DNA from: Opitutaceae bacterium | GTDB lineage: Bacteria; Verrucomicrobiota; Verrucomicrobiia; Opitutales; Opitutaceae | Direction of reading: 5' to 3' | Assembly: GCA_005792355.1 (NCBI GenBank) | Contig: SXSC01000146.1 | Coordinates: forward strand, 1 to 64,000 | DNA length: 64,000 nt | Notes under the pieces: model-generated | Database searches by the model: none | Told to the model about the DNA's origin: nothing | Seen by the model: only the letters and a program-made list of their open reading frames with translations | Shown here: positions 21,888-48,917 of the stretch, in pieces | How the letters are laid out: the number at the start of each line of letters is the position of its first letter | Position numbering within the stretch: position 1 is the stretch's first letter | Translations under genes and position numbers: made by a program

Positions 21888-21952
21888 ATAGTATCGTTTC
21901 CGGAAATCCCGTCACTGCGGTTATGCGGCGCCGTTCCTCAGGTTTTTCTTCA
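21888..21952 (-). promoter_or_regulatory. Conserved receptor-promoter element, copy 1
   Basis: Read on the minus strand: block TGAAGAAAAACCTGAGG (21936-21952), then after the family's fixed 37-bp offset the -35 box GTGACG (21910-21915), a 16-bp spacer containing the palindrome TTTCCGGAAA, and the -10 box TACTAT (21888-21893). It drives the receptor at 18831. Similarity to copy 4 extends beyond the element on both sides (about 21874-22000 against 47507-47640). Confidence 0.75.
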
Positions 21953-22028
21953 CGCGATCTTTGACCGCCCCATGTCACCGCAGCACGTCACAGGTGAGGC
22001 CGCGTTTCACGAGGTCGCGGCACCGCCC

Positions 22029-22090
22029 CTACGGCTGCCGCATCAGCGCGGAGGCCGTGACGAGGTGGATGAGTTCGCGGAGGGTGTGTA
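22029..22090 (-). pseudogene. 3' stub of a second DUF1592-type gene
   Basis: The last ~20 codons (HTLRELIHLVTASALMRQP then TAG) repeat the C-terminus of the intact gene at 22961 (HTLRELIHLVAASELMRQP), with near-identical DNA. The rest of that copy is missing; sequence upstream on this strand is the toxin-antitoxin pair. A duplication and deletion scar. Confidence 0.7.
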
Positions 22091-22191
22091 GTGGCCTGGG
22101 CATAATTTTTTTGCCAATCATCGTAGGGCAACCCAAACGACGGAGTCGAACGCAGGGGATCGCGACCATGAGCCGGTCGACTAGGACGGCT

Positions 22192-22434
22192 TTACAGGCC
22201 AAGCTTGCGGATAAGATTCTCGACCGTGAGATCGTGGTGCGTGGCGATATCCTTGAGGATTCCGGACAGGGTGCCGACCTTGATTGGGTGATGGTTTGGA
22301 GCCACCTCGTGATGTTCGCCGCCCTGTTGAGTTGTGACTCGCACATGCGAACCCTTCTGCCGGTCCACCACATAACCGAGAACGCGCAGCGCCTTGACCA
22401 GCTCCGGGCCGGACAGGTCGCGCGGCAGCTTCAT
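22192..22434 (-). CDS. hicA: HicA-type mRNA interferase toxin
   Basis: 80 aa from ATG 22434. SGPELVKALRVLGYVVDRQK followed by GSHVRV is the HicA double-stranded-RNA-binding-like fold, with His30 as the expected catalytic residue. HicA cleaves mRNA during translation and is silenced by HicB. Its ATG overlaps the TGA of hicB (ATGA at 22431-22434), so the two are translationally coupled with the antitoxin first. The longer frame to 22509 is ignored because it lies inside hicB. Confidence 0.88.
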   Translation of the reverse strand: MKLPRDLSGPELVKALRVLGYVVDRQKGSHVRVTTQQGGEHHEVAPNHHPIKVGTLSGILKDIATHHDLTVENLIRKLGL

Positions 22435-22643
22435 CGCGCCATCACCTCGTCGCGGACGAAGTGGAGCCGGATCATTTTCGGCGCTGCCATCGTCTCGTCG
22501 AAGTAGCAATCGACCGCCTCTTTCACGTTGGCCCGCAACTCGTCGAGCGTCTCGCCTTGGGTGTGGATGCCGACGCCGAGCGCCGCGGCGGTGTAGCCGC
22601 CGTCCGCGTCGTCCTCGCGAACCTCGAAGATGATTTCAGTCAT
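22431..22643 (-). CDS. hicB: HicB-type antitoxin
   Basis: 70 aa. FEVREDDADGGYTAAALGVG, then IHTQGETLDELRANVKEAVD, is the partial RNase H-like fold of HicB. The short form ends soon after this domain, and no separate DNA-binding domain is visible (VRDEVMAR tail). It is expected to bind HicA and repress the operon. The pair sits between a DUF1592 stub and the intact DUF1592 gene, next to copy 1 of the promoter element, which suggests it was acquired at a recombination point. Confidence 0.88.
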   Translation of the reverse strand: MTEIIFEVREDDADGGYTAAALGVGIHTQGETLDELRANVKEAVDCYFDETMAAPKMIRLHFVRDEVMAR

Positions 22644-22960
22644 GGGCAGCAGTGTGAGCGGGCGACGGCGGATATCAACCCCCGCTTTCTCGGGGATGGT
22701 CGCAAGGGCGAGGCGTGGCCGGTTTCACGGGATCTGCCGTAGCTGCCGCCGGGCAAGAGGAGCATTGCCGCGCCGGGAGGTTTCGCTGGCAAACAGGGTG
22801 TCAGCGTCGGGGCATCTTTTTCAGTGGCGCCGGCGGGCCAACGGCGCGCCCTGCGGCCAGATGGGAAGGGGTGAGTCTGCCGCGTGGAGCGTGGCCGGCG
22901 GCGCAAGCAGCCGGGCGCGGAGAAAACGGGGATGGGTTTCGCGATGAAGTGACACGGGCC
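22644..22960. other. Gap between hicB and the DUF1592 gene
   Basis: No gene, hairpin with T-run or repeat that I can support. It must hold the hicBA promoter near 22644-22700, but no clear boxes stand out. Confidence 0.4.
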
Positions 22961-25531
22961 CTACGGCTGTCGCATCAGCTCGGAGGCGGCGACGAGGTGG
23001 ATGAGTTCGCGGAGGGTGTGGTTTTTCGCTTTCCAATCGGTCTGCAGGCGGCGGAGGGCGGGCTGGTCGGCGAAACCGAGCGGGCGGCCCAGCGCGTAGG
23101 TAAGGAGGCGGTGCGCGAGGTTGTGCGCGAGGAGGCCGGGGTGCTGCACGAGGTAGGCGCGGATGTCGGCGGGACTGCTGACGGGCTGGCCGCGATACTC
23201 GCCGGTGGTGTCGATGGCGGCGCCGTTCGGATAGGTGCGGCGGAAGTGGCCGATGGGATCGTAGGCTTCGAGCGCGTAGCCGAGGGGATCGATCCTGGCG
23301 TGGCAGTCGGCACAGGCCTGGACGTTGCGATGTTTCTCCAGTTGCTGACGGATGGTGGTGGCGCCGCGGATGTCGGGCTCGATCGGCGGCACGTCGGGCG
23401 GCGGCGGGCTGGGCGGTGTGCCGAAGATTTTTTCGAGCAACCAGACGCCGCGCGTTACGGGGGAGGTCTCGACGCCGTTGGCGGTGACAGTGAGGATGCT
23501 GGCCTGGCCGAGCAACCCGCGCCGCGCTGAATCGGCGGGCAGGCGCAAGCGTTGCAGGGCGTCGCCGCGGACGTCGGGCAGTTCGTAGAGCCGCGCGAGG
23601 CCGGCATTGAGATAGGTGAAGTCGGCATCGACGAGCGCGGTGACGGGTCGGTCGGCGCGGACGAGTTCGGCGATGAAGCGCCAGGTTTCCTCCTTCATCG
23701 CGGGTTCGAGACGGTCGATGTGATAGGCGGGAAAAGTTTCTTTCGCTGGCGGCATGGTGCCGAGCTTGTTCAAGCCGAGCCACTGCTCGGTGAAGAGGCG
23801 CAGGAAGCGGTCGCCGCGCGGCGAATCGAGCAGGCGGTCGGTTTCACGGCGGATGGCGGCGGGATCGAGCGGGCCATTGGCGGCGAGCGAACGGAGCGAT
23901 TCATCGGGCGGACCGGCGGTGAGGAAGTAGGCGAGGCGCGTGGCGAGTTGTCGCGGGGTGATCGTCTTCGCGTCGGTTTCCGGCTCGGAGAGAAACAAGA
24001 ACTCCGAAGAGCAAACCAGGACTTTGAAGACAGGCCGCGCGGCGTCGGCGTAGCGGGTCTTGCCATCGAGACGCTCCTGCACGGCGCTCACGTAGGGGGC
24101 GAGGTCCTCACCCTTTACCTCGCGACGAAACAGGCGGCTGGCGAGGCCTTGCAACTCGGTGTGGAGTCGGGCGGGCTCGATTTGTATTTCATCGGGCGCG
24201 ATCTTTGCAAACAGCAGCGACCGGGCGGGGTGCGGTGGGTCGTCGCGCAGCGGGCCGGTGACCTGCCAGTAGCGCAGGCGGATTTCGGGGCCTTGGTAGA
24301 GGTGCTGGTAGAGTTGGTCGCGCTCGGCTCGCAGGGCGAGGTTCTCCCAGACGTGTTTTTCGATCTGCGGCACGCTGGGGTCGTATTTGTAGAGCTTGGT
24401 GGAGATGAACTGGCCGCGCGTGCCTTTCGGCGGGCCGTCGATCCAGGAGAGATAAGGCTGGGTGCCGCGATCCAGCCAGATGCGGGCGCGCACGGTCGTG
24501 TAGCGCCCGTCGGGCAGCTCGGTGGTGTGGACGATGTTGGCCGGGAGGAGCCGCCAGCTGTTGCCTCCTATTTTCATCGACTCGCCTTGCCGGCCGATGC
24601 CGAGCTGCATGGGCTGCGATTCGTCGTAGTAGGACTTCAGGCCCTCGTAGTATTTTTCCGCGCCTCCCAGCATCAGATCCTGGCCATACGGGTGATGCCG
24701 GTTCGCGGCGGTGGCCTCGACTTCGATCTCATACCAGCCGGAATGGGGCACACCGGCGGTGCCCAGCCGGCCAAGGAAGAGCTTTCCGTCGTAAATGAGC
24801 TCCCGATTTCGCAGGCCTTGGCTGAGGTGGATGTAGGCGGGGCCTTGCGCTTTCTCGGCGCTGATGACGCCCAGCCCGAAGGCGCCCTGGGTGGTGGCGT
24901 TGAGTCCGGCGCCGGCGTCCGGGTTGTCCCGCCATTGCCGGGCCTCGGGCTTGCCGTTCACTTCCGCGAGGTCGTAAGCGTGATCGAGCACCGCATCGGC
25001 GGCCTGCAGATACTGTTCCAGATGATGCCGCGAGGTGCGCAACGCGGAACCGATATTGCGAAAGCCTTCCAGCTCCTCATCGCCCGGAAAGCGGCCGGTG
25101 GGGTCGAAGTCGCCCGCGAACCCGAAGAGGTCCTGCACGGTGTGCAGATACTCCGCGCGGTTCAGGCGGCGATGCACCACCCGCCCGCCCCGGGACCGGG
25201 CGGCGGCATGCGCCTCGGTGAGCTGCCCCTCGATCCAGGCGAGCAGGGCGCGGCGCTCCTCGTCGGTCGGTTGCTGCTTCTTCGCCGGCGGCATCTCGCC
25301 AAGTTGGAGTTGGTGCATCACCTCCTGCCAGCGTTCCGCGATCGCGAGGTCGGTGCCGATCCGGAAAGGCAGGTCGTCCAGCCGACGGTCGCCCTTGCGC
25401 TCGACGTCGTCGTGGCAGCCGAGGCAGTAGCGATCGAGAAACGTCTGCGCTTTCGCCGCCGCCAGATCGGCCGCGGGGAGTGCACTGGGGAGACCGAGGC
25501 CGATGAGGCCGGCGAGCAACGACAGGCGCAT
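22961..25531 (-). CDS. DUF1592-type secreted protein with N-terminal cytochrome c motif
   Basis: 856 aa, a planctomycete/verrucomicrobial multi-domain protein (DUF1587, DUF1595, DUF1592, DUF1588, DUF1585 in that order). A signal peptide (1-20) precedes a single haem site CLGCH at residues 36-40. HRRLNRAEYLHTVQDLFGF marks DUF1587, LATRLAYFLTAGPPDESLRS DUF1592, RRGLLGQASILTVTANGVET and SPVTRGVWLLEKIFG DUF1588, and CADCHARIDPLGYALEAYDP DUF1585, which also carries a second CxxCH. Such proteins are exported and may be electron-transfer enzymes; the reaction is not established. It begins 1 bp after the stop of the DUF1552 gene, the usual pairing. Confidence 0.88.
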   Translation of the reverse strand: MRLSLLAGLIGLGLPSALPAADLAAAKAQTFLDRYCLGCHDDVERKGDRRLDDLPFRIGTDLAIAERWQEVMHQLQLGEMPPAKKQQPTDEERRALLAWIEGQLTEAHAAARSRGGRVVHRRLNRAEYLHTVQDLFGFAGDFDPTGRFPGDEELEGFRNIGSALRTSRHHLEQYLQAADAVLDHAYDLAEVNGKPEARQWRDNPDAGAGLNATTQGAFGLGVISAEKAQGPAYIHLSQGLRNRELIYDGKLFLGRLGTAGVPHSGWYEIEVEATAANRHHPYGQDLMLGGAEKYYEGLKSYYDESQPMQLGIGRQGESMKIGGNSWRLLPANIVHTTELPDGRYTTVRARIWLDRGTQPYLSWIDGPPKGTRGQFISTKLYKYDPSVPQIEKHVWENLALRAERDQLYQHLYQGPEIRLRYWQVTGPLRDDPPHPARSLLFAKIAPDEIQIEPARLHTELQGLASRLFRREVKGEDLAPYVSAVQERLDGKTRYADAARPVFKVLVCSSEFLFLSEPETDAKTITPRQLATRLAYFLTAGPPDESLRSLAANGPLDPAAIRRETDRLLDSPRGDRFLRLFTEQWLGLNKLGTMPPAKETFPAYHIDRLEPAMKEETWRFIAELVRADRPVTALVDADFTYLNAGLARLYELPDVRGDALQRLRLPADSARRGLLGQASILTVTANGVETSPVTRGVWLLEKIFGTPPSPPPPDVPPIEPDIRGATTIRQQLEKHRNVQACADCHARIDPLGYALEAYDPIGHFRRTYPNGAAIDTTGEYRGQPVSSPADIRAYLVQHPGLLAHNLAHRLLTYALGRPLGFADQPALRRLQTDWKAKNHTLRELIHLVAASELMRQP

Positions 25532-25532
25532 A

Positions 25533-26789
25533 TTAGACGAGCAGTTGGTTCAGGTTGCCGTTGCTCGTGCCGAAGCGGTCGCGCTCGACACCCATCTGCT
25601 GGAGGAGCGTGACGAAGAGGTTGCACATCGGCGTCTGCTGCCGGTTCTGCTTGGGAAAAAACAGGTGGCGACCGTGGCGGAACCCGCCGCCGGCCAGCAG
25701 CACGGGCAGGTTGGTATTGGCGTGGGAACTGGCGTTGCCCATGCCGCTGCCGAAGACGACCGCGGTGTGATCGAGCACGCTGCCGCCGCCGATGTCCTTC
25801 ATCGCGGCAAGCCGGCCGAGAAAATGGTCCAACTCACCCATCAGCGCGGACTCGACGACGTGCAGTTGCCGCAGCTTCTCGGTATCCTGGCCGCTGTGCG
25901 AGAGATCGTGGTAGCCGCGATTGATGCCGGCAATTTTCGTGACCGGCAAACCACCGCCGATGTTCAGCGTGATGATGCGCGTGGCATCGGCCTGCAGCGC
26001 CAGCGCAGCGAGATCGAAGTTCGCCCGCACCTTGTCCATGCAGCCGTCATTGGACCACGTGGGTTTCGGGCCGGCGGTCACCGGCAGCGGCTTGTCCAGC
26101 CAGGCGATATTCGTGGCGTTGGCCCGCTCGAAGTCGCGCATCGCGCCCATGAACTCGTCGATCTTTTCGCGATCCCAGCGATCCAGCTGCGGGGCCAGGC
26201 GCTTGGCATCCCGCGCGATGAGCGAGAGGACGGATTCATTCTCGGCCAGCGCCGCGCGCTTGGCGGCCGTGGCGACCCCGCGCTGTGGTTTGAAGAGGAG
26301 GTCGAACGCCGCCCCGGGGTCCTCCAGTTTCGGCACCGCGATGCCGGAGCGCGTCCACGAGATGGCATCACCGCCGCCCACGCCAAAGCAGAGCGAGGGA
26401 AACCGCGTCAAGCCGCCGCAATGCTCCTCCACCAGCTGGTCCAGCGACACGCAGCCATCCGCGAAGCTGCCCGCCTGCTCGCGGCGCACGCCGCTGAGAA
26501 ACGCATGCACGCCGTAGTGGCCGCCTTGCACGCTCGGGTGATCCAGCTGGGAAAAGACCGTCATCTTCTCCCGCCAGTGCGCCAGCGGCTTCAGCAGCGG
26601 CGTGAGTTCCAGCCCGGGTCCTTGGCTCGCCGGGAAAAACGATTCCGGCCGCAGCCCGAAATCCAGCCCGATGCAGACCAGCCGGCGCGGCGCCGCCTTG
26701 GCCTCGGCGCCGCGCAGAGCCAGCGGAGAGAACCACGGGAAACTCAGCGCCGTGGCGCCGAGGGTTTGGAGGAAGTGTCGTCGATGCAT
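25533..26789 (-). CDS. DUF1552 secreted protein
   Basis: 418 aa from ATG 26789 (26792 also possible). The N-terminus MHRRHFLQTLGATALSFPW has a Tat-like RRHF signal. Conserved DUF1552 stretches are LVCIGLDFGLRPESFFP, SQLDHPSVQGGHYGVHAFLS, SLDQLVEEHCGG, PSLCFGVGGGD and DHTAVVFGSGMGNASSHANT. It is the standard partner of DUF1592 proteins; the pair is probably exported together and shares an unknown oxidative role. The 104 bp upstream, up to the ATPase stop, would hold the promoter. Part of a TGACGAAAAACC block occurs at 26945-26961 within the ATPase 3' end. Confidence 0.88.
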   Translation of the reverse strand: MHRRHFLQTLGATALSFPWFSPLALRGAEAKAAPRRLVCIGLDFGLRPESFFPASQGPGLELTPLLKPLAHWREKMTVFSQLDHPSVQGGHYGVHAFLSGVRREQAGSFADGCVSLDQLVEEHCGGLTRFPSLCFGVGGGDAISWTRSGIAVPKLEDPGAAFDLLFKPQRGVATAAKRAALAENESVLSLIARDAKRLAPQLDRWDREKIDEFMGAMRDFERANATNIAWLDKPLPVTAGPKPTWSNDGCMDKVRANFDLAALALQADATRIITLNIGGGLPVTKIAGINRGYHDLSHSGQDTEKLRQLHVVESALMGELDHFLGRLAAMKDIGGGSVLDHTAVVFGSGMGNASSHANTNLPVLLAGGGFRHGRHLFFPKQNRQQTPMCNLFVTLLQQMGVERDRFGTSNGNLNQLLV

Positions 26790-26893
26790 CATCGTTGTTC
26801 GATTTTTGGGATACGTAGGTGCGTTTAGTCCCGCGTCGGCATCATGGGTGATTTCCAGCAGATTCAGATCTCCGCAAGATAGAGTGGCATTCC

Positions 26894-28294
26894 TCATCTT
26901 ACGCGGTCTTGAGTCAATTTACTGTTCGATATTGTGCCGGAGAAACTCAGGTTTTTCGTCAGCCCTCTCACGCCCCCACCGCCTTCCAGCATCCATTCCC
27001 AGGCCGGACGCACGGTGACGCCTTTCGGTGCTTCGGCCTGGGCCTGACTCACCCCGGTGGAGCCTGCGGTGAGCAACAGGCCCGGGAGTTTTTTGTGCTC
27101 CGCCATCGCCTCCTGCATGGCTCGGAACTCGCGCGCCCGCGTCTCCGCATCGCTCATGTCTGCACAGACCTGGATCAGCGCCGGCTTGCCGACGGGCGGT
27201 GTGGCGAGGAAATCCACCTCATAGCCACTGCTGGTGCGCACATACGCACGCTCGCATTTGCGGCGCTCCAGTTCGACGAGCACCGCCGTTTCCAAAGCAT
27301 GTCCCGTGTTTGGCCGGCCCGTGCGATCAAACGCGGCGATGAGACCCGCATCCACCGGGTAGGCTTTGCGCGGGTTCGCCTGGCGCTGGCGCTCGCTGGC
27401 CGTGTGCAGCGGCACCAGTCGGATCATGAACGCATCCTCCAAGTGCCCGAGCATGGCATGAAGCCCATCCTTCGACACGGCGATACCCTGCGATTTCTGA
27501 TCGGTAAAAAAACGGTGCATGCTGAACAGACCCGCCGCCGCGCCCAGCAGTTGCCGTGTGAGGCGGCGCAGCGCGACCACATTTGTGACGCCGTGACGCT
27601 CCACCACGTCCCGGAGGATGACGGAGTCCACGTAGCCTTGGAGCAGCGGCAACCGGTCCTGGGTCGCCAGACCCTGCGCCTCTGGAAAGCCGCCGTTGAG
27701 CAGAAACTCCGCAAAACGCTTCTCCACCGCCGAGCGTTTCGCCTTGGGCAAAAAGGCCGGGTCGCCCTCCGGTTCCGCGTTCTGATGCCGCAAGCACTCG
27801 CGAAAACTGAACGGATGCACGAGCGTCTCCATCGCCCGTCCCCGCAGCGCGGTGGCGATCTCACGGCTGAGCATCTTGGCCGAGGAGCCGCTGACCATGA
27901 CGTCCACCTTCTCCGAATCCATGAGGCGACGCACAAAACTTTCCCAGCCCGGCACGACCTGGATTTCATCGAAATAGAACGTCACCTTCCGCCGGTCGCG
28001 ATGCTGCGGAAAACGGAGAAAATACTCTTCCAGCACCCAATGCAGTTGTGCCGCCTCCATGCCCGCGAGGCGTTCATCATCGAAGTTGAAATAGACCTGG
28101 GTCTCGCGCGGCGCACCCAGCTCCATCCGCTCACGCTGGAGCTGGTGGAGGAAGCAGGTCTTGCCGGCGCGGCGCATCCCGATCACCGCATGCGTTTTTC
28201 CCGGCACCGCCGGCAGGCAAATGTCCCGCCGGGTGATCGCGGGCAGCGCCGACTGCACGGCATCGGCAAGTTTCTGTCGGATCGGTTCTCTCAT
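26894..28294 (-). CDS. AAA ATPase with DUF4143
   Basis: 466 aa. Walker A GMRRAGKT at residues 39-46, Walker B (VTFYFDEIQ) around 105-113, sensor-like [17 protein letters not shown], then the DUF4143 region ([56 protein letters not shown]), all in the standard order. These cytoplasmic ATPases are widespread and of unclear function. AAAGGATA just before the start is a good ribosome site. The last ~22 residues (LTKNLSFSG and onward) are encoded by DNA that resembles the first block of the promoter element, so the C-terminus may have been replaced by intergenic sequence. Confidence 0.85.
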
Positions 28295-31738: not shown

Positions 31739-31825
31739 TTTTATTTTTGAGGGGGTTGCAGTCGTTCTGGATGCCCGCTGATAGGAAACTGGATTTTCAG
31801 GGGGATTGGATCCGGGAGGGGTTTT

Positions 31826-31879
31826 CTCAGCCGCGTCGCCCACCACGATGAGTGCCTTGCTGTGGAATGGAGTAGTCAT
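31826..31879 (-). pseudogene. 5' stub of a DJ-1/PfpI-type gene, locus A
   Basis: The first 18 codons (MTTPFHSKALIVVGDAAE) match the stub at 48926 and the start of DJ-1/PfpI proteins. Similarity then stops, and the frame runs on into the receptor gene. ATG 31879 sits just after the -10 box of copy 6, so the promoter was originally that of the PfpI gene. Confidence 0.6.
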
Positions 31880-31887
31880 GGACTCGC

Positions 31888-31953
31888 AGCATAATAGGAT
31901 TGGCAGTCGCCGTCACTACACTCCTTAGTCAGGAAACCTCAGGTTTTTCGTCA
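31888..31953 (-). promoter_or_regulatory. Conserved receptor-promoter element, copy 6
   Basis: Minus strand: block TGACGAAAAACCTGAGG (31937-31953), -35 GTGACG (31911-31916) at the same 37-bp offset as in all copies, 17-bp spacer, -10 TATGCT (31888-31893). With copy 5 it forms the second sequence class (block followed by TTTCCTGACTAA). It lies between a divergent regulator stub and the locus A receptor. Confidence 0.75.
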
Positions 31954-31964
31954 CCCCTTTTTTC

Positions 31965-32135
31965 ATGGCTTCCCGCCGTCTGCGTCCTCCCCGCGTCGCG
32001 CTCCTGGTCGAAACCACGCGCACCTACACCCGCGAACTCCTCGCCGGAGTGCGGCGCTACGTTGCGGCGCACGGCCCTTGGTCGTGATTCATCGAGCTGC
32101 GCGCGCTGGAGTCCGGCCCGCCGCCTTGGCTGAAG
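31965..32135 (+). pseudogene. 5' stub of a XylR-type regulator, with in-frame TGA
   Basis: From ATG 31965 the first ~38 codons (MASRRLRPPRVALLVETTRT, YTRELLAGVRRYVAAHGPW) nearly match the intact regulator at 47679-48842. A TGC-to-TGA change then stops the frame (32086-32088), after which FIELRALESGPPPWLK continues in frame. Past 32135 the gene is replaced by the inverted-repeat element. It is divergent from the locus A receptor exactly as the intact gene is from the locus B receptor. Confidence 0.8.
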
Positions 32136-32136
32136 G

Positions 32137-32281
32137 GCATACCAAAGGGGTCACGTCGGGGCATACCAAAGGGGTCACGTCGCAAGTCTTGACAAGTCGC
32201 AATAACCTATTTCTTCACTGCCCGGTCATGTCTTTCCGATCGATTCGAGGTGTCTGTCAAGACTTGCGACGTGACCCCTTT
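32137..32281. repeat. Tandem 22-bp repeat plus perfect 27-bp inverted repeat
   Basis: A 22-bp unit occurs at 32137-32158 and 32161-32182. The second copy leads into a 27-bp arm (32168-32194, starting AAAGGGGTCACGTCG) that is repeated exactly inverted at 32255-32281, with a 60-bp interior. There is no ORF inside. It separates the regulator stub from a sialidase stub, so it is either a small non-autonomous element or a REP-type hairpin at a deletion junction. Confidence 0.75.
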
Positions 32282-38713: not shown

Positions 38714-38805
38714 GGTGGGATGCGGTGAGGTGTTTTGCAGTGGGTCTGGCAGGGATGGCGCGGACGGGAAAATCGAATCCGAGCGCGTAGCGCGGAATAC
38801 CCTCA

Positions 38806-38870
38806 ACAGTATCGTTTCCGGAAATCCCGTCACTGCGGTTATGAGGCGCCGTTCCTCAGGTTTTTCGTCA
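38806..38870 (-). promoter_or_regulatory. Conserved receptor-promoter element, copy 2
   Basis: Minus strand: block TGACGAAAAACCTGAGG (38854-38870), -35 GTGACG (38828-38833), 16-bp spacer with TTTCCGGAAA, -10 TACTGT (38806-38811). It drives the receptor starting at 38713. Confidence 0.75.
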
Positions 38871-40722: not shown

Positions 40723-43425
40723 TTACGTGTGTTTCAGTTCGAGGTTCACGGTCTGGCCGGCCGGGAGGGCGAAGCGGCCGGGGGCGATCAACCTCAACGC
40801 GAGTTGCTCGTCGCGATGCACCACGAGTTCGCCGGCGGCGTTCGGGGGCAGCGTGAGGGTAAGCGTCCGGGCGCCGAGCGGTCCCTTGCCGGAAAACGCA
40901 ATCGGGCCGTGCGGGGTGTGCACCGTCAGCGCGAGGTCGGGCAGGTCGGCCAGTTGTGGGCGAATCTCGTAGCGCTTGAACGCCGGCTCCAGCAGGCGGA
41001 TGCCGGCCAGGCTCATCACGGCGACGTAGATCGGCGCGCAGCAGGCATGGCTCCAGTTGTTCGGCGTGTCGGGTTTTTTGCTGCCGCCGTAGAATTCCTC
41101 GATAGAATTGTTGAGCCGCACCGAGTTCATGGCGCCATAGACCTCGCGCAATTCCTTCACGACCACGTCGGGGCGACCGCCTTTGGCCAGGGCCCACCAG
41201 CCCCACGCCACCGGTTCCGTCGAGTTGTCGACGCCTAAATTCTTGGGCTTCGTTGCCAGCAGTTCCACGCTGCGCCCGATCGCGCCGCCCGGGCACTGGT
41301 CATACTCCACGGAGATGCCGAGGGTCATTTCGCTATAGTGCACATCGCCGTCTTCGCGCCACCAGGGCAGATTGTCCACAAAGGCGCCGTGTTCCTTGCT
41401 CCAGAAGCGGGCGATGGTGGCCTTTAGCACGCGTGCGCCGAGGCGCTCGATTTCGCCGGCGAGTTTCGTTTCACCAAAGGCGCGGCACATCGGGGCCATC
41501 GCCCGGCTGAGACTGGCGGCCCAGAAAAGGTTGAAGGCGCATTGCCGATCCCTCTGGTGCGGGAAACAACCGGAGAAGCCCACGTAAACAATCGGGAACA
41601 CGTAGTCGTCCTGATCCACCGGCAGCAAACCATCCGGATTCATTTTTCCGCGCAGGTAGTTCACCTGGCGCAACAGCCGCGGATAGGGTTCGCGCAGCGG
41701 CGCGAGGTCGCCCGTGTAGAGGTAGTAGTCCCAGCAGTCGAAGGTGAACCGAACTCCCATATCGAGGCACACGCCGCAATGCGTGGCCTCCAGCACCCGC
41801 TGGCCCCAACGAGTGAGCCGGTCATGCGAAGGCCAGGGCTCCATGAAGTAGCCCTCGGCCGTGCTGCCCTGGCTGAAGCTCCGGATAAAGCGCGCCACCT
41901 GTCGCTTCTCTCCCGCCAACGCGTAGATCGCGTGCCGGCACAGCGACATTCCGCCGGAATACTGGTTTCGCTCCCGGGCCATGCCGTCCACGAAGGTTTC
42001 CTGCGCGGCATTGCGCAGGGTGTTGGTCGCGGCATCGAAGACCCGTTGCACCACGGCATCCGAGGTGACGACGCGCGGTTCGTGCGGCCAGGGATACTCG
42101 CGCTTCAGGATGCCGGGGTTCGACACCACGACCGTGCCGCGTCCCGGATGCAGGTGGATTTGCATCCAGCGGAAGCAGTCAAAATCGAACCAGCGGAAGT
42201 GGTTCACCCCTTCCCGGCAGGTGAAGCGCGCCCATTTGTGATAATGCGTGTTCAACAGCGCGGGACCGCCCACTTGATGCCCGTCGAGCTGCATCATCTC
42301 CAGTGTCGTGCCCGCGGGAGCCTCGATCGTGATGCCCGGCCAGCCCACGGATTGCTCCGGCAGCGCGAAGGTCAGGGTCGTGCCGCGCTCGGGGTCGAGT
42401 TCGAGCCGCCACGCCTTATCTCCGGCGGGCTGGGCCGCCCGCGTGACTTCAGCCTGGTAGGCATTCGCCGGGCGCACGGCAAAATACTCGGCAATCGGCC
42501 GCCGCCACTTGATGCGGTGCTGCTCGACCAGCGGCGCCGCCGAAACCCACGTCTCGCGCATCAGGGGAATGAGGCGCGGGCGCAGCTCGAACTTGGAACG
42601 GGCCTCTGCGCCGTAGATGAACTTCCGTGGGCCGTGAATCCAGTTCATCACTTCGTTGGTCGGATCGGCGAAGATGGGCTGATTGGCCGGACACGGCGGC
42701 AAATACGGTTCCAGCCAGTCGGCATTCTCCACGAAGCCTTGCTCGTTCCATCCGTGTGGGTGCAGGCGGCCATCGAACTCCTCCTGCAGGGCGCGCATGA
42801 AGAACATGCGATGCTGTCCCGGTTTCCACGCCTGCGACAGGTGGCAGCGCCACGTATTGTCCGAAACCACGGTTTCGCGCCGGCCGTCGGCGTGCTCGAT
42901 CTCCAGCTTGAAGATAAAGCCCGCCCGCCCCATCGGGCACGTCGAGTCTCCCTGTCCGAAATAGAGCACCGTCGCCCCGATCGCGTTCTCACCCGCCGTC
43001 AACACCGCGGTGAGATCCATGGGGTCCACCTCCGCCCAGCGCGGGTCGCTGGGCGCCGGGCCCCACTGGATACGCCGCCCGTTTACCTCGAGGAGGTAGC
43101 GGCTGTCGCCGATGATCCAGCCGGTCGCTTTCTTCGGCTTCCCGTTCAGCCGCAGGACGCGGCGGAACAGGACAAAGGTGTTCGGCAGCATCCGGTCGCC
43201 GGGATACCACAGCCATTTGGCCGGAGAAAGATCCAGCGTGTCGCCGGGCGCCGACTCAAACGGCTTCACTGCAAACGGTGCCGCGGGCGCCCCCGGAGCG
43301 TCGGAGGACTTGGCGGCGTCGGCAGCCACCGCCGCCGGCGTGACGGCGGTCGATAACGCGACGAGACCGGAGGATTTCAGGAAGTCACGGCGAGGAATGC
43401 CGGCAGAGTGAGGTGATGGTTTCAT
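40723..43425 (-). CDS. Tat-exported alpha-L-rhamnosidase-like glycosidase (GH78-like)
   Basis: 900 aa from ATG 43425. A Tat leader (PRRDFLKSSGLVALSTAV) precedes N-terminal beta domains (FVLFRRVLRLNGKPKKATGW, RYLLEVNGRRIQWGP, ENAIGATVLYFGQGD) typical of the lectin-like region of Bac_rhamnosid proteins. The (alpha/alpha)6 catalytic barrel has FVDGMARERNQYSGG in place of the common DCPxRxExxxWTGD segment, and later FDCWDYYLYTGDLAPLREPY. A C-terminal beta domain closes the protein (FKRYEIRPQLADLPDL, FALPAGQTVNLELKHT). It would release L-rhamnose or a related 6-deoxysugar from exported glycans. Operon with the sulfatase 21 bp downstream. Confidence 0.82.
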   Translation of the reverse strand: MKPSPHSAGIPRRDFLKSSGLVALSTAVTPAAVAADAAKSSDAPGAPAAPFAVKPFESAPGDTLDLSPAKWLWYPGDRMLPNTFVLFRRVLRLNGKPKKATGWIIGDSRYLLEVNGRRIQWGPAPSDPRWAEVDPMDLTAVLTAGENAIGATVLYFGQGDSTCPMGRAGFIFKLEIEHADGRRETVVSDNTWRCHLSQAWKPGQHRMFFMRALQEEFDGRLHPHGWNEQGFVENADWLEPYLPPCPANQPIFADPTNEVMNWIHGPRKFIYGAEARSKFELRPRLIPLMRETWVSAAPLVEQHRIKWRRPIAEYFAVRPANAYQAEVTRAAQPAGDKAWRLELDPERGTTLTFALPEQSVGWPGITIEAPAGTTLEMMQLDGHQVGGPALLNTHYHKWARFTCREGVNHFRWFDFDCFRWMQIHLHPGRGTVVVSNPGILKREYPWPHEPRVVTSDAVVQRVFDAATNTLRNAAQETFVDGMARERNQYSGGMSLCRHAIYALAGEKRQVARFIRSFSQGSTAEGYFMEPWPSHDRLTRWGQRVLEATHCGVCLDMGVRFTFDCWDYYLYTGDLAPLREPYPRLLRQVNYLRGKMNPDGLLPVDQDDYVFPIVYVGFSGCFPHQRDRQCAFNLFWAASLSRAMAPMCRAFGETKLAGEIERLGARVLKATIARFWSKEHGAFVDNLPWWREDGDVHYSEMTLGISVEYDQCPGGAIGRSVELLATKPKNLGVDNSTEPVAWGWWALAKGGRPDVVVKELREVYGAMNSVRLNNSIEEFYGGSKKPDTPNNWSHACCAPIYVAVMSLAGIRLLEPAFKRYEIRPQLADLPDLALTVHTPHGPIAFSGKGPLGARTLTLTLPPNAAGELVVHRDEQLALRLIAPGRFALPAGQTVNLELKHT

Positions 43426-43438
43426 AAAAACGATGCGT

Positions 43439-43690
43439 TCAGGTTGTGCTTCGCCCCAGTAGGAAATTGCAGCCCAACGAGGGGAGTGGTTCATCGAGTG
43501 TGGCTTCGGCGTGGCCGTCTCGGATCGTGGTGGCCGGAGACCGCAACTGGCCCGCGACATCGATACCTGACCACGTGTAGCGGGTGAAATCACCGGCCAG
43601 CCGAATGGCCGCGGCGGGAGCGGGCGCGGTGCTGACGGCGCCTTGAAGGAAGCGCCGGCGGCTCAGGAAGGCGGAGTCAGCCGGGCACAT
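43439..43690 (-). pseudogene. Second Tat-leader stub, 83 aa
   Basis: SRRRFLQGAVSTAPAPAAAI is a Tat-type leader, followed by about 50 residues (FTRYTWSGIDVAGQLRSP, LPSLGCNFLLGRSTT) that look like the tail of a larger protein. Same pattern as 38932-39168: the two ends of an exported protein with its body missing. It ends 13 bp before the rhamnosidase start and starts about 50 bp after the receptor stop at 43742. Confidence 0.45.
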
Positions 43691-43741: not shown

Positions 43742-45988
43742 TTACAGTTGCCGGCGCAGCGAGAGCAGGAAGTTGCGCGGCGGGTAGAGGTTGTTGCTCG
43801 ACTGTGCGATGCCGAACGAGGGCAGAAGCTTGTCGGTGACGTTGTTGACGTTGAAGGCGAGATTCCAACGACCGAACGTGTAGTCGGCGCCCAGGTCGAT
43901 GACGAAGCCGCCCGCGATGCGGTAGTTGTTGGACACTCGTCCGACAATGCTCGTCTGATAGGTCATGCCGCCCTTGATCCGGAAGCCGTCGGTGCGTTTG
44001 CCCCGCAGGTCATACGAGACGAACGACATCACCTTGTGGCGTGGCACGCCGGGCAACTCAGGGCTCCTCACGCTCGTGGTGGGATCGACCACGGACGTAT
44101 CCATGAGGGAGTAACCGCCCACCAGGGTCATCCCGGCCACCGGGGATCCGAAGAATTCCAACTCCCAGCCTTTGGCGCGATTGCCGCCCTGGAGGTAGTT
44201 TCGCCCACCGCCAGGTGCCGTGGGGTCGAATTGACCGAGCACGGCGTCCAGCGCCTGGATGTCGAAACGCGCGAGCGAGGCACTCACCTTGCCGTTGAGC
44301 AACTCGGTCTTGATCCCAAACTCCTCGTTGATGCGGATGGGCGTGGCGGAGAAGAACTGCTGCCGCGGGTCCGCCAATCCAATTGAGCCGAAGACCGGAA
44401 CCTGCGAGGTCGGCGCGCCCGCTTCGCTTTTCACGGCATAGAGTGCCAGCGTCCGGGTGGGCTTGAACGTGATCCCATACATCGGGCTGTCGATGTTGGC
44501 GGGATCGGGCGAGACAACCGCGCGGTTGTTGCGCCGGTCTTCCAGCTTTTGCCCGACCGCGGTATCCCGCCGCAGCCCGGCGGTGACGATGATGCGGTCA
44601 TTCCAAAATCTGGACTGATGGTTGGCAAAGTAGCCGATCGACCGGTTCCGCGTCACCTGATTGCTGAGAAGCACCGGTGCGCCCAACGGCATGTCATTAT
44701 TGGGCAGGTAGACGTTCAGGTCTCCGATCGATCCTTGAGAGGTCTGGCTGTCGCTCCGGGTCCGATTCACCTCGTATCCGGCCAGCGTCTGGTGAGTGCC
44801 GCCGAGCACGTTGTATTTCAGGACCAGGTCACCCTGCGCGGACAGCAGATTCTGGGCGGCGTAGCTCAGCTGATAGGTTGGGCGGGTCAGATAGACATAG
44901 CCGTCGGCTCCGATATAGTGGACGTGGGTCGGGCGGGCCTTCGGGGTATCGATGTCGGTCCATTGCCGCATCAGGTTCTGGCGGAAGGAGAGGTTGTCCG
45001 TGAAGGCGTGGGTGAACGTCAGGAAGAGGTTCTCGACCCGCTGCACGCGCCCCTCGAGCTTGCGGTCGTTGGTGTTGAGCTTGAGCGGGGCCCAGCGCGG
45101 CGTGAGGCTGATCTTCGGGGTCGCTCCGCCCCGGATATCGAGAGGATTGCTCGTGCCATCACGGACGAACGCGAGGTAGACGTTTGCCTCGTTGCTGGTG
45201 GTCACCGCGTCGAGATACTCCGCCTCGACGAGCAGATTGGTCTTGTCCGAAATGCGCCAGTTCACCGAGGGGTTCACGCCGAACTTGTGCAGTCCGTCCT
45301 CGAAGTCGCGCCAGCCGCCGCCGGTCTGGTAGGCAGTCACCAGCCGGTAGGTGAGCTTCTTGCTGTCGGCCGTGATCGGCCCGCCCATGTCCAACTCGCC
45401 GCGGAACATGCCGTAGCTGCCGGCGGCCGCGCCGATCGTGATGGCCTGCTTGTCGAGCGGCTTCTTCGTGATGCGATTCACCAAACCGCCCGACTCGGAC
45501 GAGCCGGCGATCGCGGCGGCCGGGCCCTTGACGATCTCGATCCGATCGAGGGCGAAATTGTCGGAAACGTAGCCGCTCGTCCTGAACCCGTTGCGGTAGG
45601 CGTTGAAGGCGGGAAATCCCCGGATGACCGAGCCGTCGTTCACGTTCTGGCGATAGCTGACGTTGGGGATGTAGGCGACCGCCTGCGCGTAGTCGAAGGC
45701 GCCGATGTCGCGCATCAGGGCCGAGGTGACCACGCTGACCGACTGCGGGATGTCGATGATCGGGGTCTTGAGGCGCGTGGCGGAGGAAAACGACGAGACG
45801 CCGTAGCCGGACAATTCGGATGTGTCGGTGACCTTGAACGCCTCAAGTTTGATGGCCTCCTCGCCCTTGTCGGGCTTTCTGGCCTCGACGGCCTGGGCGA
45901 GAAGCGACGGAGTGCTGGAGCAAGCAGCGGCAAGCGCGAGGGCGAGCGCGATGGAACGGTTCTGGTGGTGGCAGGGTGATGTTTTCAT
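43742..45988 (-). CDS. TonB-dependent receptor, siderophore-receptor type, 748 aa
   Basis: Start ATG 45988 (the open frame to 46135 runs through the promoter). Signal peptide to about residue 32, then EAIKLEAFKVTDTSELSGYG, plug (IDIPQSVSVVTSALMRDIGA, VIRGFPAFNAYRNGFRTSG, LDRIEIVKGPAAAIAGSSES) and a barrel that ends NFLLSLRRQL, without the usual terminal Phe or Trp. The plug pattern is that of FhuE/ferrichrome-type receptors. It is preceded by element copy 3 and followed by the Tat stub, rhamnosidase and sulfatase on the same strand. Confidence 0.9.
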   Translation of the reverse strand: MKTSPCHHQNRSIALALALAAACSSTPSLLAQAVEARKPDKGEEAIKLEAFKVTDTSELSGYGVSSFSSATRLKTPIIDIPQSVSVVTSALMRDIGAFDYAQAVAYIPNVSYRQNVNDGSVIRGFPAFNAYRNGFRTSGYVSDNFALDRIEIVKGPAAAIAGSSESGGLVNRITKKPLDKQAITIGAAAGSYGMFRGELDMGGPITADSKKLTYRLVTAYQTGGGWRDFEDGLHKFGVNPSVNWRISDKTNLLVEAEYLDAVTTSNEANVYLAFVRDGTSNPLDIRGGATPKISLTPRWAPLKLNTNDRKLEGRVQRVENLFLTFTHAFTDNLSFRQNLMRQWTDIDTPKARPTHVHYIGADGYVYLTRPTYQLSYAAQNLLSAQGDLVLKYNVLGGTHQTLAGYEVNRTRSDSQTSQGSIGDLNVYLPNNDMPLGAPVLLSNQVTRNRSIGYFANHQSRFWNDRIIVTAGLRRDTAVGQKLEDRRNNRAVVSPDPANIDSPMYGITFKPTRTLALYAVKSEAGAPTSQVPVFGSIGLADPRQQFFSATPIRINEEFGIKTELLNGKVSASLARFDIQALDAVLGQFDPTAPGGGRNYLQGGNRAKGWELEFFGSPVAGMTLVGGYSLMDTSVVDPTTSVRSPELPGVPRHKVMSFVSYDLRGKRTDGFRIKGGMTYQTSIVGRVSNNYRIAGGFVIDLGADYTFGRWNLAFNVNNVTDKLLPSFGIAQSSNNLYPPRNFLLSLRRQL

Positions 45989-46107
45989 GGAGGGCAGAGT
46001 GGGTGGGTGCTGAGGGGAGGTGGGAGGGGTTGGTGCGAACGGCAGTCGCTCGCGGGGGAGATTGACGGGCGGGGCCGCAGATTTTTCGGGTCGGCGGGCC
46101 GCGGGTG

Positions 46108-46172
46108 ATAGTATCGCATCCGCCAGTCCCGTCACTGCGGTTTTGAGGCGCCGTTCCTCAGGTTTTTCGTCA
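46108..46172 (-). promoter_or_regulatory. Conserved receptor-promoter element, copy 3
   Basis: Minus strand: block TGACGAAAAACCTGAGG (46156-46172), -35 GTGACG (46130-46135), 16-bp spacer in which the palindrome is degenerate (ACTGGCGGAT), -10 TACTAT (46108-46113). It lies 120 bp before the receptor start at 45988. Confidence 0.75.
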
Positions 46173-46263
46173 TGCGACCTCGGCTGCCCGCGTCACCACT
46201 CATGCGGCAGACGCTCGGCTGAACGCGGCCGTCCCTGAGCGGCCGCAGCCAGCCCGCCGTTGC

Positions 46264-46522
46264 TCAGGCCACTTCCTTGCCGCGAAATTCGCCCGGCGTC
46301 AGCCCGTAGGCGCTCTTGAACGCGGCCTGCAGGTAGTGGCTGTAGGCAAACCCCGTCTGCTGGGCGATCACGTCGATCGTCAGCTCGGTCTCGCGGAGGA
46401 GGCGCTCCACCTCGCGGAAGCGCACGCGGAGAATTTCCTCCTTCGGGGTGCGGCCGATCGCAGCCTTCATCCGGCGATCGAGGGTGCTGCGTGAGGCATT
46501 CAATTTCCGGCAGAGGTCGTCA
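46264..46522 (-). pseudogene. 3' fragment of a duplicated XylR-type regulator
   Basis: Codes for DDLCRKLNASRSTLDRRMKA through GEFRGKEVA, nearly identical to the AraC-type HTH end of the intact regulator at 47679-48842 (differences include GLTPG for GQTPG). The sensor domain is missing; at 46522 the match breaks into a hairpin repeat. Without upstream signals it is a relic of a regulator duplication. Confidence 0.8.
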
Positions 46523-46526
46523 CCAC

Positions 46527-46571
46527 GCATCGCGTGATGCCTGAGCGGGTTCATCACGCGGAGCGTGATGA
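46527..46571. repeat. Two REP-like hairpins at the regulator breakpoint
   Basis: GCATC-GCGT-GATGC at 46527-46540 is followed by a perfect 9-bp stem, TCATCACGC (46551-46559) with GCGTGATGA (46563-46571), loop GGA. They begin within 5 bp of the point where the duplicated regulator loses similarity, so they mark or caused the break. Confidence 0.6.
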
Positions 46572-46685
46572 CTACAATGCAGGGCCTCGCGGGCCAGCGG
46601 AAGGCTATCGACTTGAATTTGGCCAAGCGCCACGCGGCACCACTGGAGATTTGACCCTGCGCCCTGCACCACGCACGTTGGGCCG

Positions 46686-46973
46686 ATGCGACTCACCTCC
46701 GAAACGGCCCAAGCCATCCGCGATGAGGTCAGCCGGGCTGACCCGCAGGCGGAGATCTGGCTTTTTGGCTCGCGGGTGAATGACGAGGCGCGCGGTGGCG
46801 ACATCGACCTATTGGTGGTCTCCGAGCAGATCACCTTCCCGGACGAACTTCAGCTGCGCACCGCCCTTCTTGATCGGATCGGCTGGCAACGGTTGGATCT
46901 CATCGTGCGGGGCCGCGAACAATTGCGTGAGCCGATCGCCGCTTTGGCGCTGGAAACGGGAATCAAGCTATGA
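46686..46973 (+). CDS. MNT-type nucleotidyltransferase antitoxin
   Basis: 95 aa, minimal nucleotidyltransferase fold: FGSR (27-30) and GGDIDLLVV (37-45) give the GSx(n)DxD active site. In MNT/HEPN pairs this protein AMPylates or otherwise modifies the HEPN toxin to silence it. Its TGA overlaps the ATG of the HEPN gene (ATGA, 46970-46973), so translation is coupled. The operon points against its neighbours and sits between two copies of the regulator 3' end, as an inserted unit would. Confidence 0.85.
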   Translation: MRLTSETAQAIRDEVSRADPQAEIWLFGSRVNDEARGGDIDLLVVSEQITFPDELQLRTALLDRIGWQRLDLIVRGREQLREPIAALALETGIKL

Positions 46974-47422
46974 ACCCCGAGACACCGCGCCGTCTCCTGG
47001 ATCACGCTTTGGTTGAGCTCGAGGCGGCGAGAAGGCATCTCGATTTCTCCGCCGAGCGGGTGCGAAACCTGCCCGGTGACCTGCAACTGATCTCAGAAGC
47101 GCAGTTGGAGAGCGCGGAAGCGTTCACGAGTCGGTTTGCGCGCACGGTCGATCTCTTGGTCAACAAGGTCCTCCGGGGCCTCGATCGCGTCGAACTTAAG
47201 CCGCCTGGAACCCTGCTGGATGTCGTCAACGGGGCCGAACAGCGTGGTTTTGTCGCATCGGCCGCCACCTTGCGGGAGATGAAGATGGTGCGCAATGAAG
47301 TGGCTCATGACTATGCTGGAACCCGACTCGCGGCGGTCTTTGCCTATTGCCGGGAGCGAAAACCCGCACTCGACGAAATCTGCGGCCACGTGCGTGACTA
47401 TGTCCGCAATCTGCCGGCCTAG
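46970..47422 (+). CDS. HEPN-domain toxin
   Basis: 150 aa, all-helical HEPN protein. The RNase motif RxxxxH is R108-NEVA-H113 followed by DY (RNEVAHDY), which is typical of active HEPN toxins of MNT/HEPN systems that cleave RNA. The stop TAG is the first three bases of a 15-bp inverted-repeat arm (47420-47434), so the C-terminus was set by that element or the element landed on the stop. Partner: the MNT gene immediately upstream. Confidence 0.85.
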   Translation: MNPETPRRLLDHALVELEAARRHLDFSAERVRNLPGDLQLISEAQLESAEAFTSRFARTVDLLVNKVLRGLDRVELKPPGTLLDVVNGAEQRGFVASAATLREMKMVRNEVAHDYAGTRLAAVFAYCRERKPALDEICGHVRDYVRNLPA

Positions 47423-47508
47423 CAGCCCGTCGGACTTCGAAAATCAGGCTTGGGGGTGATTTTCCGGAATTTTGCCGGCAACGGGGGCCCGACTCCGACG
47501 GGCTGCTA
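47420..47508. repeat. 89-bp palindromic element (15-bp perfect inverted ends)
   Basis: TAGCAGCCCGTCGGA at 47420-47434 is repeated exactly inverted at 47494-47508, with 59 bp between. The left arm contains the stop of the HEPN gene; the right arm abuts the sequence that leads to element copy 4. Size and structure fit a MITE or REP-like unit. The T-run needed for a simple terminator is absent. Confidence 0.75.
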
Positions 47509-47522
47509 GGCGAATGCCATCG

Positions 47523-47587
47523 ATAGTATCGTTTCCGGAAATCCCGTCACTGCGGTTATGCGGTGCCGTTCCTCAGGTTTTTCATCA
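47523..47587 (-). promoter_or_regulatory. Conserved receptor-promoter element, copy 4 (orphan)
   Basis: Minus strand: block TGATGAAAAACCTGAGG (47571-47587), -35 GTGACG (47545-47550), 16-bp spacer with TTTCCGGAAA, -10 TACTAT (47523-47528). No receptor follows; transcription would run antisense into the HEPN/MNT genes. It must once have served a receptor now lost. Confidence 0.7.
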
Positions 47588-47678
47588 TGCGATCTTTGAC
47601 GGCCCCCTTGTCCCCGCAACACGCCGCAGGTGCTCGCCGAACCACCGTCGCCTCTCGGCGAGCCGGCCCCGCCGTTGC

Positions 47679-48842
47679 TCAGGCCACTTCCTTGCCGCGA
47701 AATTCGCCCGGCGTCTGGCCGTAGGCGCTCTTGAACGCGGCCTGCAGGTAGTGGCTGTAGGCAAACCCCGTCTGCTGGGCGATCACGTCGATCGTCAGCT
47801 CGGTCTCGCGGAGGAGGCGCTCCACCTCGCGGAAGCGCACGCGGAGAATCTCCTCCTTCGGGGTGCGGCCGATCGCCGCCTTCATCCGGCGATCGAGGGT
47901 GCTGCGCGAGGCATTCAATTTCCGGCAGAGGTCGTCAACATTCAGCCCGGCAGCGGCGTTCTCGCGAATGATCCGCGCGGCGTGGGCGACAAGGCGATCC
48001 GTGATGACGAATTCATCCGAAGAGGCGCGGACCACGATCCCCTTGGGCGGAAACAATGTCTCGCCCTTCGGCCGCGCACCGCCGCGCATGAGGCGCGCAA
48101 GGAGTTCCGCCGCGGCAAAACCGACCGTCGCGCCGTCGAAGCGCACACTGGTCAGCGGCGGGTTGGCGAACGCGCACAGGGTCTCCTCGTTTTCCGCGCC
48201 GACCACCGCGACCTCTTCCGGCACCGGGATGCCCGCGCGCTGGCAGGCATCGAGCAGGCGGACGCCGAGTTGGTCGTTGGCGGCAAAGATGCCCACGGGC
48301 TTCGGCAACGCGGAGAGCCACGCGATCAGCCGGGTCTGGCCCTTTTCCCAGTCGGCCGCGCGATCGGAGATCGGCTCCGGCAGCAGCGAACAAGCGCCGC
48401 CGCGCTGCTCCACGGCCGTGACAAAATTCTGCACGCGCTCCTCAAAGAAGCGTTCGGTGTGCAGGCTGTAGGCGGCAAAATTCCGGTAGCCACGGTCGAA
48501 GAAATGCTCGGCGACCATCTGTCCGATCAGCCGGTTGTCCATGCCGACAAACGGGAGAGGGCTCTTCAGGTAGGTCGCGCGCAGCTCGACGGCCGGGAGC
48601 CCTGTCGCGGCGATCACGTCGGCCATTTCCTGCGTGAACGTGCGCGTGAGGATGCCGTCGCCGTCCCAGTTCTTCAGCCAGGGCGGCGGGCCGGACTCCA
48701 GCGCGCGCAGCTCGATGAAGCACGACCAAGGGCCGTGCGCCGCGACGTAGCGCCGCACTCCGGCGAGGAGTTCGCGGGTGTAGGTGCGCGTGGTTTCGAC
48801 CAGGAGCGCGACGCGGGGAGGACGCCGACGGCGGGAGGCCAT
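47679..48842 (-). CDS. XylR-type transcriptional regulator (LacI-like sensor plus AraC HTH)
   Basis: 387 aa from ATG 48842. Residues ~10-270 form a periplasmic-binding-protein-like sugar sensor (PRVALLVETTRTYTRELLAG, VGMDNRLIGQMVAEHFFDRG, GIFAANDQLGVRLLDACQRA, EEVAVVGAENEETLCAFANP). Residues ~285-387 are an AraC double HTH (LNVDDLCRKLNASRSTLDRR, IDVIAQQTGFAYSHYLQAAF). This is the layout of XylR of E. coli, which has no N-terminal LacI HTH. It is divergent from the locus B receptor, with element copy 5 starting 9 bp upstream of its start codon, so it most likely controls that element and itself. Two truncated paralogues (31965, 46264) show repeated duplication. Confidence 0.9.
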   Translation of the reverse strand: MASRRRRPPRVALLVETTRTYTRELLAGVRRYVAAHGPWSCFIELRALESGPPPWLKNWDGDGILTRTFTQEMADVIAATGLPAVELRATYLKSPLPFVGMDNRLIGQMVAEHFFDRGYRNFAAYSLHTERFFEERVQNFVTAVEQRGGACSLLPEPISDRAADWEKGQTRLIAWLSALPKPVGIFAANDQLGVRLLDACQRAGIPVPEEVAVVGAENEETLCAFANPPLTSVRFDGATVGFAAAELLARLMRGGARPKGETLFPPKGIVVRASSDEFVITDRLVAHAARIIRENAAAGLNVDDLCRKLNASRSTLDRRMKAAIGRTPKEEILRVRFREVERLLRETELTIDVIAQQTGFAYSHYLQAAFKSAYGQTPGEFRGKEVA

Positions 48843-48851
48843 AAAAAGGGG

Positions 48852-48917
48852 TGACGAAAAACCTGAGGTTTCCTGACTAAAGAGTGCAGTGACGGCGACT
48901 GCCAATCCGATTATGCT
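48852..48917 (+). promoter_or_regulatory. Conserved receptor-promoter element, copy 5
   Basis: Plus strand: block TGACGAAAAACCTGAGG (48852-48868), -35 GTGACG (48889-48894), 17-bp spacer, -10 TATGCT (48912-48917). It lies between the intact regulator and the locus B PfpI stub/receptor. It is the mirror image of locus A and the only copy still beside an intact regulator. Confidence 0.78.

Follow-up and report, generated by a model that had tools for sequence, protein, structure and literature searches.

A repeated, predicted operator-promoter of a XylR-type regulator in front of TonB-dependent receptor genes in an Opitutaceae bacterium

The XylR regulator of E. coli combines a LacI-type sensor with an AraC-type DNA-binding domain, and one study reports that its Vibrio homologue XylRA has a motif made up of two direct repeats (PMC12125979). 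In freshwater Verrucomicrobia, the passages of another study describe carbohydrate loci in which TonB receptors, glycoside hydrolases, and sulfatases stand beside a regulator, with sulfatases near PSCyt genes, families for which no function is given as known (PMC5615132). Regulon expansion in the LacI family, in which certain lineages add targets to a local regulator, as here, is likewise described in parts of a third (PMC4052901). Here, we report on a 64,000-nucleotide stretch (the window) of a draft Opitutaceae genome in which a short block, TGANGAAAAACCTGAGG, recurs at a fixed distance from a -35 box; each copy is, with high probability, the operator-promoter of a XylR-type regulator encoded in the same stretch, a prediction drawn, like all the evidence below, from sequence and draft genomes. 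The regulator has the domain order of E. coli XylR and matches it (4fe4/4fe7) over the full length at E 4e-49, so that it belongs to the XylR type, and its putative operator consists, like the XylRA motif, of two direct repeats. The locus differs from XylR and XylRA in its targets, which are TonB receptors and PfpI/TIM-barrel and cytochrome-type genes. It differs from the freshwater loci in that one predicted operator joins the parts, the passages of that study containing no operator or regulon, and from LacI-family expansion in that truncated pieces of the regulator gene and its neighbour are still attached to the new sites. A full-text literature search, with most subscription papers outside its reach, found no paper on such a XylR-type regulon with TonB receptors in Verrucomicrobiota, and the passages available from PMC8857213 contain no mention of AraC or promoter.

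The block matches exactly at six places in the window, at 21936, 31937, 38854, 46156, and 47571 on the minus strand and at 48852 on the plus strand, and exact matching thereby recovered all six copies listed in an initial annotation of this DNA. The window comprises bases 1-64000 of the 75,649 on contig C97, and a scan of the whole genome (8,416,821 bases in 416 contigs; completeness 98, contamination 5.06) gave seven exact matches, all on C97, the seventh lying beyond the window at C97:71290 on the plus strand; a reversed-pattern control gave none. A receptor, a receptor-like gene, or pfpI stands behind every exact copy except 47571. An eighth copy at 26945 on the minus strand has one mismatch and is degenerate. 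With up to three mismatches, the window holds nine matches against a mean of 0.28 and a maximum of two in dinucleotide shuffles, and the genome holds 87 against 38 in the control, so that only the strong copies are informative. In each of the seven exact copies, GTGACG begins 37 bases downstream of the block start, and the -10 box follows after 16 bp in one sequence class (class A: 21936, 38854, 46156, and 47571) and after 17 bp in the other (class B: 31937, 48852, and 71290), exactly the geometry first proposed. The classes have the block and GTGACG in common and are little alike in between. In alignment A1, which combines ten sites of each class and covers the window genome and seven relatives, GTGAC at positions 38-42 from the block start is invariant in 20/20 sites, and the -35/-10 spacer varies. 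The predicted sites and the regulator gene are as follows.

21883-21953, minus strand: class A operator-promoter (predicted), upstream of the receptor gene TBDT1
26930-26961, minus strand: eighth, degenerate site, preceding the DUF1552-PSCyt3 pair (profile E 0.0014, model positions 3-34)
31884-31955, minus strand: class B operator-promoter (predicted), between a xylR 5' fragment and a receptor open reading frame (ORF) that starts with pfpI codons
38800-38871, minus strand: class A operator-promoter (predicted), upstream of the receptor-like ORF 35822-38833
46106-46173, minus strand: class A operator-promoter (predicted), upstream of the receptor 43742-46135, with a xylR 3' fragment just before it
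47518-47588, minus strand: class A operator-promoter (predicted) just 3' of xylR, followed by an inserted-looking stretch and no receptor
47679-48842, minus strand: XylR-type regulator gene (xylR), 387 amino acids, periplasmic-binding-like domain and AraC-type helix-turn-helix (HTH) domain (Pfam)
48850-48921, plus strand: class B operator-promoter (predicted), divergent from the intact xylR

Both classes thus flank the intact regulator gene, class A at 47571 just 3' of it and class B at 48852 on its 5' side. The claim that the copies stand in front of TonB receptors holds for most of them; copy 47571 is now separated by an inverted repeat (about 47419-47509) and a HepT-type gene pair, namely a HepT-type gene at 46970-47422 and a small frame at 46686-46973 read as its MNT-type partner, apparently an insertion between this copy and the xylR 3' fragment. 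Similarly, of the two copies assigned to divergent regulator/receptor regions, 48852 does lie beside the intact xylR, and 31937 lies beside a xylR fragment only. The definition of a four-copy class by the motif TTTCCGGAAA fared less well: three of the four copies contain it, but it is missing from all six class A sites in the relatives, and it was therefore rejected as a second binding site or conserved part.

The block is retained with the regulator across the phylum. Orthologues of the regulator (E up to 1e-120) occur in 9/252 family genomes, and GTDB contigs yielded a wider set of 50 loci encoding a related protein, which were scanned over the 215-bp upstream stretch, with up to four mismatches allowed in 16 fixed positions. 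The block was found upstream in 41 of the 46 loci whose regulator is at least 60% identical (exactly in 11) and in none of the four below 60%. In 44/46 loci, no more than 1.5% of shuffles equalled the best block match; a second consensus, derived from these data, entered this test as well. This second consensus came from distant loci, many of which carry the block form TGACCAAAAACCTTACT, and it served to align 44 class B sites from the same loci, so that the statistics on those 44 sites are partly circular. In other families, where the regulators are 65-94% identical, the upstream sites keep the core but not the spacer. Three genomes of the same genus without an orthologue gave no profile match below E 0.01. 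A one-mismatch search for the block in 150 family genomes returned mostly chance matches; five of the 28 loci read adjoin xylR (in G026, twice in G091, and in G112 and G139).

The internal structure of the block region resembles an operator for a dimeric regulator. A comparison of offsets (14-53 by column similarity in class B; matches per sequence at 17-39 in class B and at 17-44 in class A) gave 22 as the strongest direct repeat in both classes, followed by 38. At offset 22, 20 class B representatives show 7.35 of 17 matches (null 4.30, standard deviation 0.86, P 0.00035), and class A shows 9.1 of 17 (null 4.4, P 5e-5). The repeat defines two putative half-sites, given here with the promoter of the class B copy at 48852.

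Block positions 1-17 (48852-48868 in class B copy 48852): half-site 1 (TGACNAAAAACCTGAGG)
Block positions 23-39 (48874-48890 in class B copy 48852): half-site 2
48889-48894 and 48912-48917, plus strand: -35 and -10 boxes of the class B promoter

Half-site 2 touches the -35 box GTGACG, and the putative operator is accordingly composed of two direct half-sites beside a promoter. This is the arrangement known for AraC-type activators, with tandem half-sites two helix turns apart, of which the second touches the -35 box. Class A half-site 2, GCNNCATAACCGCAGTGAC, fits by eye the phylum-wide form TGCANCATANCNGCAGTGAC better than does the class B half-site of this group; the second half-site differs between the classes, which gives two sequences with one geometry. 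In the preferred reading, the AraC-type domains of a regulator dimer would read the tandem half-sites 22 bp apart, and the ligand-loaded dimer, with half-site 2 abutting a weak -35 box and the -10 box lying 16-17 bp on, would recruit RNA polymerase and activate the TonB receptors, the sulfatase and rhamnosidase genes next to them, and an operon of PfpI and sugar-isomerase-like genes. The regulator would also act on its own gene. On the opposite strand of class B, a promoter of xylR itself is a possibility: TATG, a possible -10 box, lies within half-site 2 in 31/44 class B sites and in 12/20 representatives, and CAA occurs at one of two places in 32/44 sites and 9/20 representatives, as against 0/10 class A sites for the first of these places. 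This opposite-strand TATG, together with the overlap of half-site 2 with the -35 box and the LacI/periplasmic-binding type of the sensor domain, would also suit a regulator of opposite sign, with XylR seated at half-site 2 as a repressor until a sugar releases it. We regard that sign as unlikely, since the DNA-binding domain is of AraC type, the Vibrio homologue with the direct-repeat motif is reported in the passages at hand as a positive regulator (PMC12125979), and weak hexamers would be expected where an activator is needed.

Profile searches extended the site list beyond the window. Profile R1, built from alignment A1 and run over the 252 family genomes, gave 28 matches at E up to 1e-4 in 10 genomes, of which 20 are the training sites and match by construction. 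Seven of the eight new sites precede TonB receptors and one precedes a PSCyt1/PSCyt2/DUF1553 protein (G182:C32 at 15055, 18512, and 32266; G171:C103:1098; G112:C13:17797; G146:C302; G067:C36; G091:C3:57093). Four of the seven receptors, in G112, G171, G146, and G067, are orthologues of TBDT1 (18831-21845) with 86-92% similarity, three of them over about half of the length, at contig or locus ends. Six class A sites of the training set come from relatives; TonB receptors follow four of these, identified through Pfam in two cases and through likeness to a window receptor in the other two, and a GH28 enzyme gene follows a fifth. A second profile, R2, was trained on 22 class B sites and applied to 12 distant genomes; its best site lies 5' of xylR in all 12 (seven of these best sites being in the training set), and 10 of them have no other site below E 0.01. 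In a phylum sample of 387 genomes, R2 matched four at E up to 1e-5, namely the window genome, G026, and two loci already found, the regulator itself having been sought in these four only. The co-occurrence with orthologues and the seven of eight new sites at TonB receptors favour the earlier proposal of one receptor regulon under a XylR-type regulator that reads the block, in which activation is what we infer.

Several observations weigh against this interpretation. The regulator's two HTH segments have mean identities to the window protein of 82% and 69% among 43 orthologues, compared with 72% for the ligand domain, so that only the first is the more conserved (the assignment of the recognition helices is our own). 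Offset 38 also scores high in both classes (6.9 and 7.6 of 17), and a consensus scan of 46000-49300 found no sigma-70 promoter, because of which the -35 and -10 hexamers must be called weak. No clear site was found in L057 (five mismatches) or L091 (regulator N-terminus unmatched), no class A site was found in L069/G026, and G120, with a regulator 63% identical, has only a weak adjoining match (E 0.08). One class A site of a relative (G171) has no clear gene behind it. An orthologous regulator is missing from G146, where the best match reaches 41%, and from G067, where nothing matches at E 1e-30; both genomes do have a site and a receptor. The regulator gene may have been lost or fall in a gap of the draft, or another regulator may be at work. 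The DUF1552-PSCyt3 orthologues of G091 and G182 have no operator, and the corresponding site of the window is weak. Finally, short frames across the block occur more often than shuffled sequences would lead one to expect.

The last of these points bears on the leader peptide raised as an alternative in the initial annotation; in this reading, the block would encode (M/V/L)TKNLR... followed by a stop and control the genes by attenuation. The frame is indeed present: the base preceding the block makes an ATG, GTG, or TTG in 43/44 class B and 7/7 class A sites examined, a start and a stop lie within 13 codons in 13/20 class B representatives (shuffles mean 6.8, 0.4% reaching 13), and changes are commonest at the third codon position, with 7, 15, and 21 of 100 each at positions 1, 2, and 3. 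However, the codon changes comprise 9 synonymous against 25 non-synonymous, which is not the pattern of purifying selection, seven of the 20 representatives lack the short frame, and the two G182 sites C32:15055 and 18512 have no ATG, GTG, or TTG there. The stops sit in the conserved half-site 2, which is destroyed when the part downstream of the block is shuffled. In addition, the frame lies upstream of the -35 box, with its class B start only a few bases away from where the divergent regulator gene begins, so that no promoter is apparent for it. A leader peptide is therefore very improbable, and the preferred account of the block remains an operator read by the regulator.

The predicted targets in the window are clustered TonB receptors, glycan-active enzymes, and possibly a DUF1552-PSCyt3 gene pair, as listed below.

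18831-21845, minus strand: TonB-dependent receptor TBDT1, 1004 amino acids
22961-26897, minus strand: DUF1552 (25533-26897) and PSCyt3-type (22961-25531) pair, a possible further target
29351-31879, minus strand: TonB-dependent receptor ORF, 842 amino acids, open from a pfpI-derived ATG
35822-38833, minus strand: TonB receptor-like ORF, 1003 amino acids, with Plug and TIGR01783 matches below cut-offs
39196-40701, minus strand: sulfatase
40723-43593, minus strand: GH78 protein
43742-46135, minus strand: TonB-dependent receptor, followed on the same strand by the GH78 and sulfatase genes
49194-51521, plus strand: TonB-dependent receptor downstream of class B copy 48852

With its receptors clustered together with glycan-active enzymes and a regulator, the region qualifies as a polysaccharide utilisation locus. 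As to the ligand, the GH78, GH28, and sulfatase genes that accompany the sites may point to a rhamnose- or uronate-rich, possibly sulfated glycan. Beyond the window, the genes that follow copy 71290 are an intact DJ-1/PfpI gene and those for a TIM barrel similar to xylose isomerase (PF01261, no NCBIfam match) and a cytochrome c-type protein; no xylA or xylB model matched among the proteins scanned, which were part of the locus genes only. At C97 66750-70909 (L008 2750-6909), a gap of about 50 bases separates the end of a PSCyt2/DUF1553 and DUF1501 gene pair from the truncated xylR beside this operon. For the DUF1552 gene as a target, a site was present in two of the four loci examined: in G255, a second operator lies before a DUF1552-PSCyt3 pair whose DUF1552 protein is 72% identical to that of the window (25533-26897). 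Behind a weak match in G255:C25 (E 0.009) stands a frame of 374 residues that matches PAF-acetylhydrolase. The degenerate operator 26930-26961 overlaps the end of an AAA_14/DUF4143 frame. The likely signal peptide of the receptor at 49194 lies in a frame without an upstream ATG, GTG, or TTG, and a run of nine C at 49133-49141 just before this gene could represent phase variation, decay, or an assembly error. Stretches of about 50-65 bases at 34057-34123, 35664-35730, and 40644-40701 are 90-94% identical and lie near gene ends or starts, and self-comparison also showed short repeats, 82-86% identical, at C97 56845-56949 and 64237-64309.

Self-comparison further showed how the copies are related. 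Class B copies share 95-99% identity over 311-489 bp, and class A copies share 86.5-91% over 67-127 bp, one pair reaching 90% over 422 bp. Pieces of xylR and pfpI accompany them:

31826-31879, minus strand: pfpI codons 1-18, in the reading frame of the receptor ORF
31965-32138, plus strand: xylR 5' fragment, amino acids 1-58, 95% identical
46267-46545, minus strand: xylR 3' fragment, amino acids 292-387, 91% identical, beside class A copy 46156
48926-49015, plus strand: pfpI codons 1-30, not in the reading frame of the receptor

Copy 48852 carries the whole of xylR and these 30 pfpI codons, and copy 71290 carries xylR amino acids 1-107 and the whole of pfpI. As the copies carry truncated ends of xylR and pfpI, it could be deduced that promoters were duplicated in front of other genes. 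Likeness within a class is thus to a large part recent descent, a point that had been missed when identical geometry was first taken as a sign of selection; since the copies are recent duplications with gene ends attached, this likeness cannot alone show selection on the geometry. Recent descent might even be thought to account for everything, the block being a mobile or merely duplicated repeat with no regulatory meaning, as the C97 copies are 86-99% alike and carry xylR and pfpI pieces. The shared lengths range from 67 to 489 bp with no fixed ends, unlike a mobile element, and the conservation of the core and not the spacer in front of diverged regulators in other families makes this the least credible of the alternatives, and a very improbable one.

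For the operator-promoter of XylR, then, a history of stepwise growth can be proposed. One 5' site in most outgroups, a second 3' site in relatives, and seven sites here fit such growth of a local regulon: the oldest site would be the divergent class B promoter 5' of xylR, to which family relatives added a second, class A site 3' of xylR, and in this genome stretches of class B or class A promoter with truncated xylR and pfpI ends would have been duplicated before other genes. Comparable duplication events appear to have taken place in two other genomes. In G262 (locus L052), the intact xylR and its operator now face a frame of 835 codons, 801 of which were scanned with no Pfam match; the one facing pfpI is another operator, accompanied by xylR fragments (amino acids 5-47 and 97-144). 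In G091:C3, a class B copy carries xylR amino acids 2-36 and twelve pfpI codons, which run in frame into a PSCyt2 protein and lead into its apparent signal peptide. We can tentatively extend this, at somewhat less than even chances, to the idea that the xylR-pfpI promoter is a recurrent grafting cassette that sometimes fuses pfpI start codons in frame to exported proteins, that it is a main route by which receptors and PSCyt-type proteins are recruited, with the xylR and pfpI ends recording the additions, and that the shared operator ties PSCyt and DUF1552 proteins to receptor-mediated sugar uptake.

Collectively, the analysis assigns to a sugar-type regulator of Verrucomicrobiota a predicted operator and a list of candidate targets. 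The growth of its regulon is visible with intermediate scars still in place, so that the route is unusually easy to follow. Moreover, the shared operators would place a PSCyt2/DUF1553 protein, and perhaps the DUF1552-PSCyt3 pairs, in one regulon with TonB receptors, which may offer a handle on the function of the PSCyt and DUF1552 proteins.

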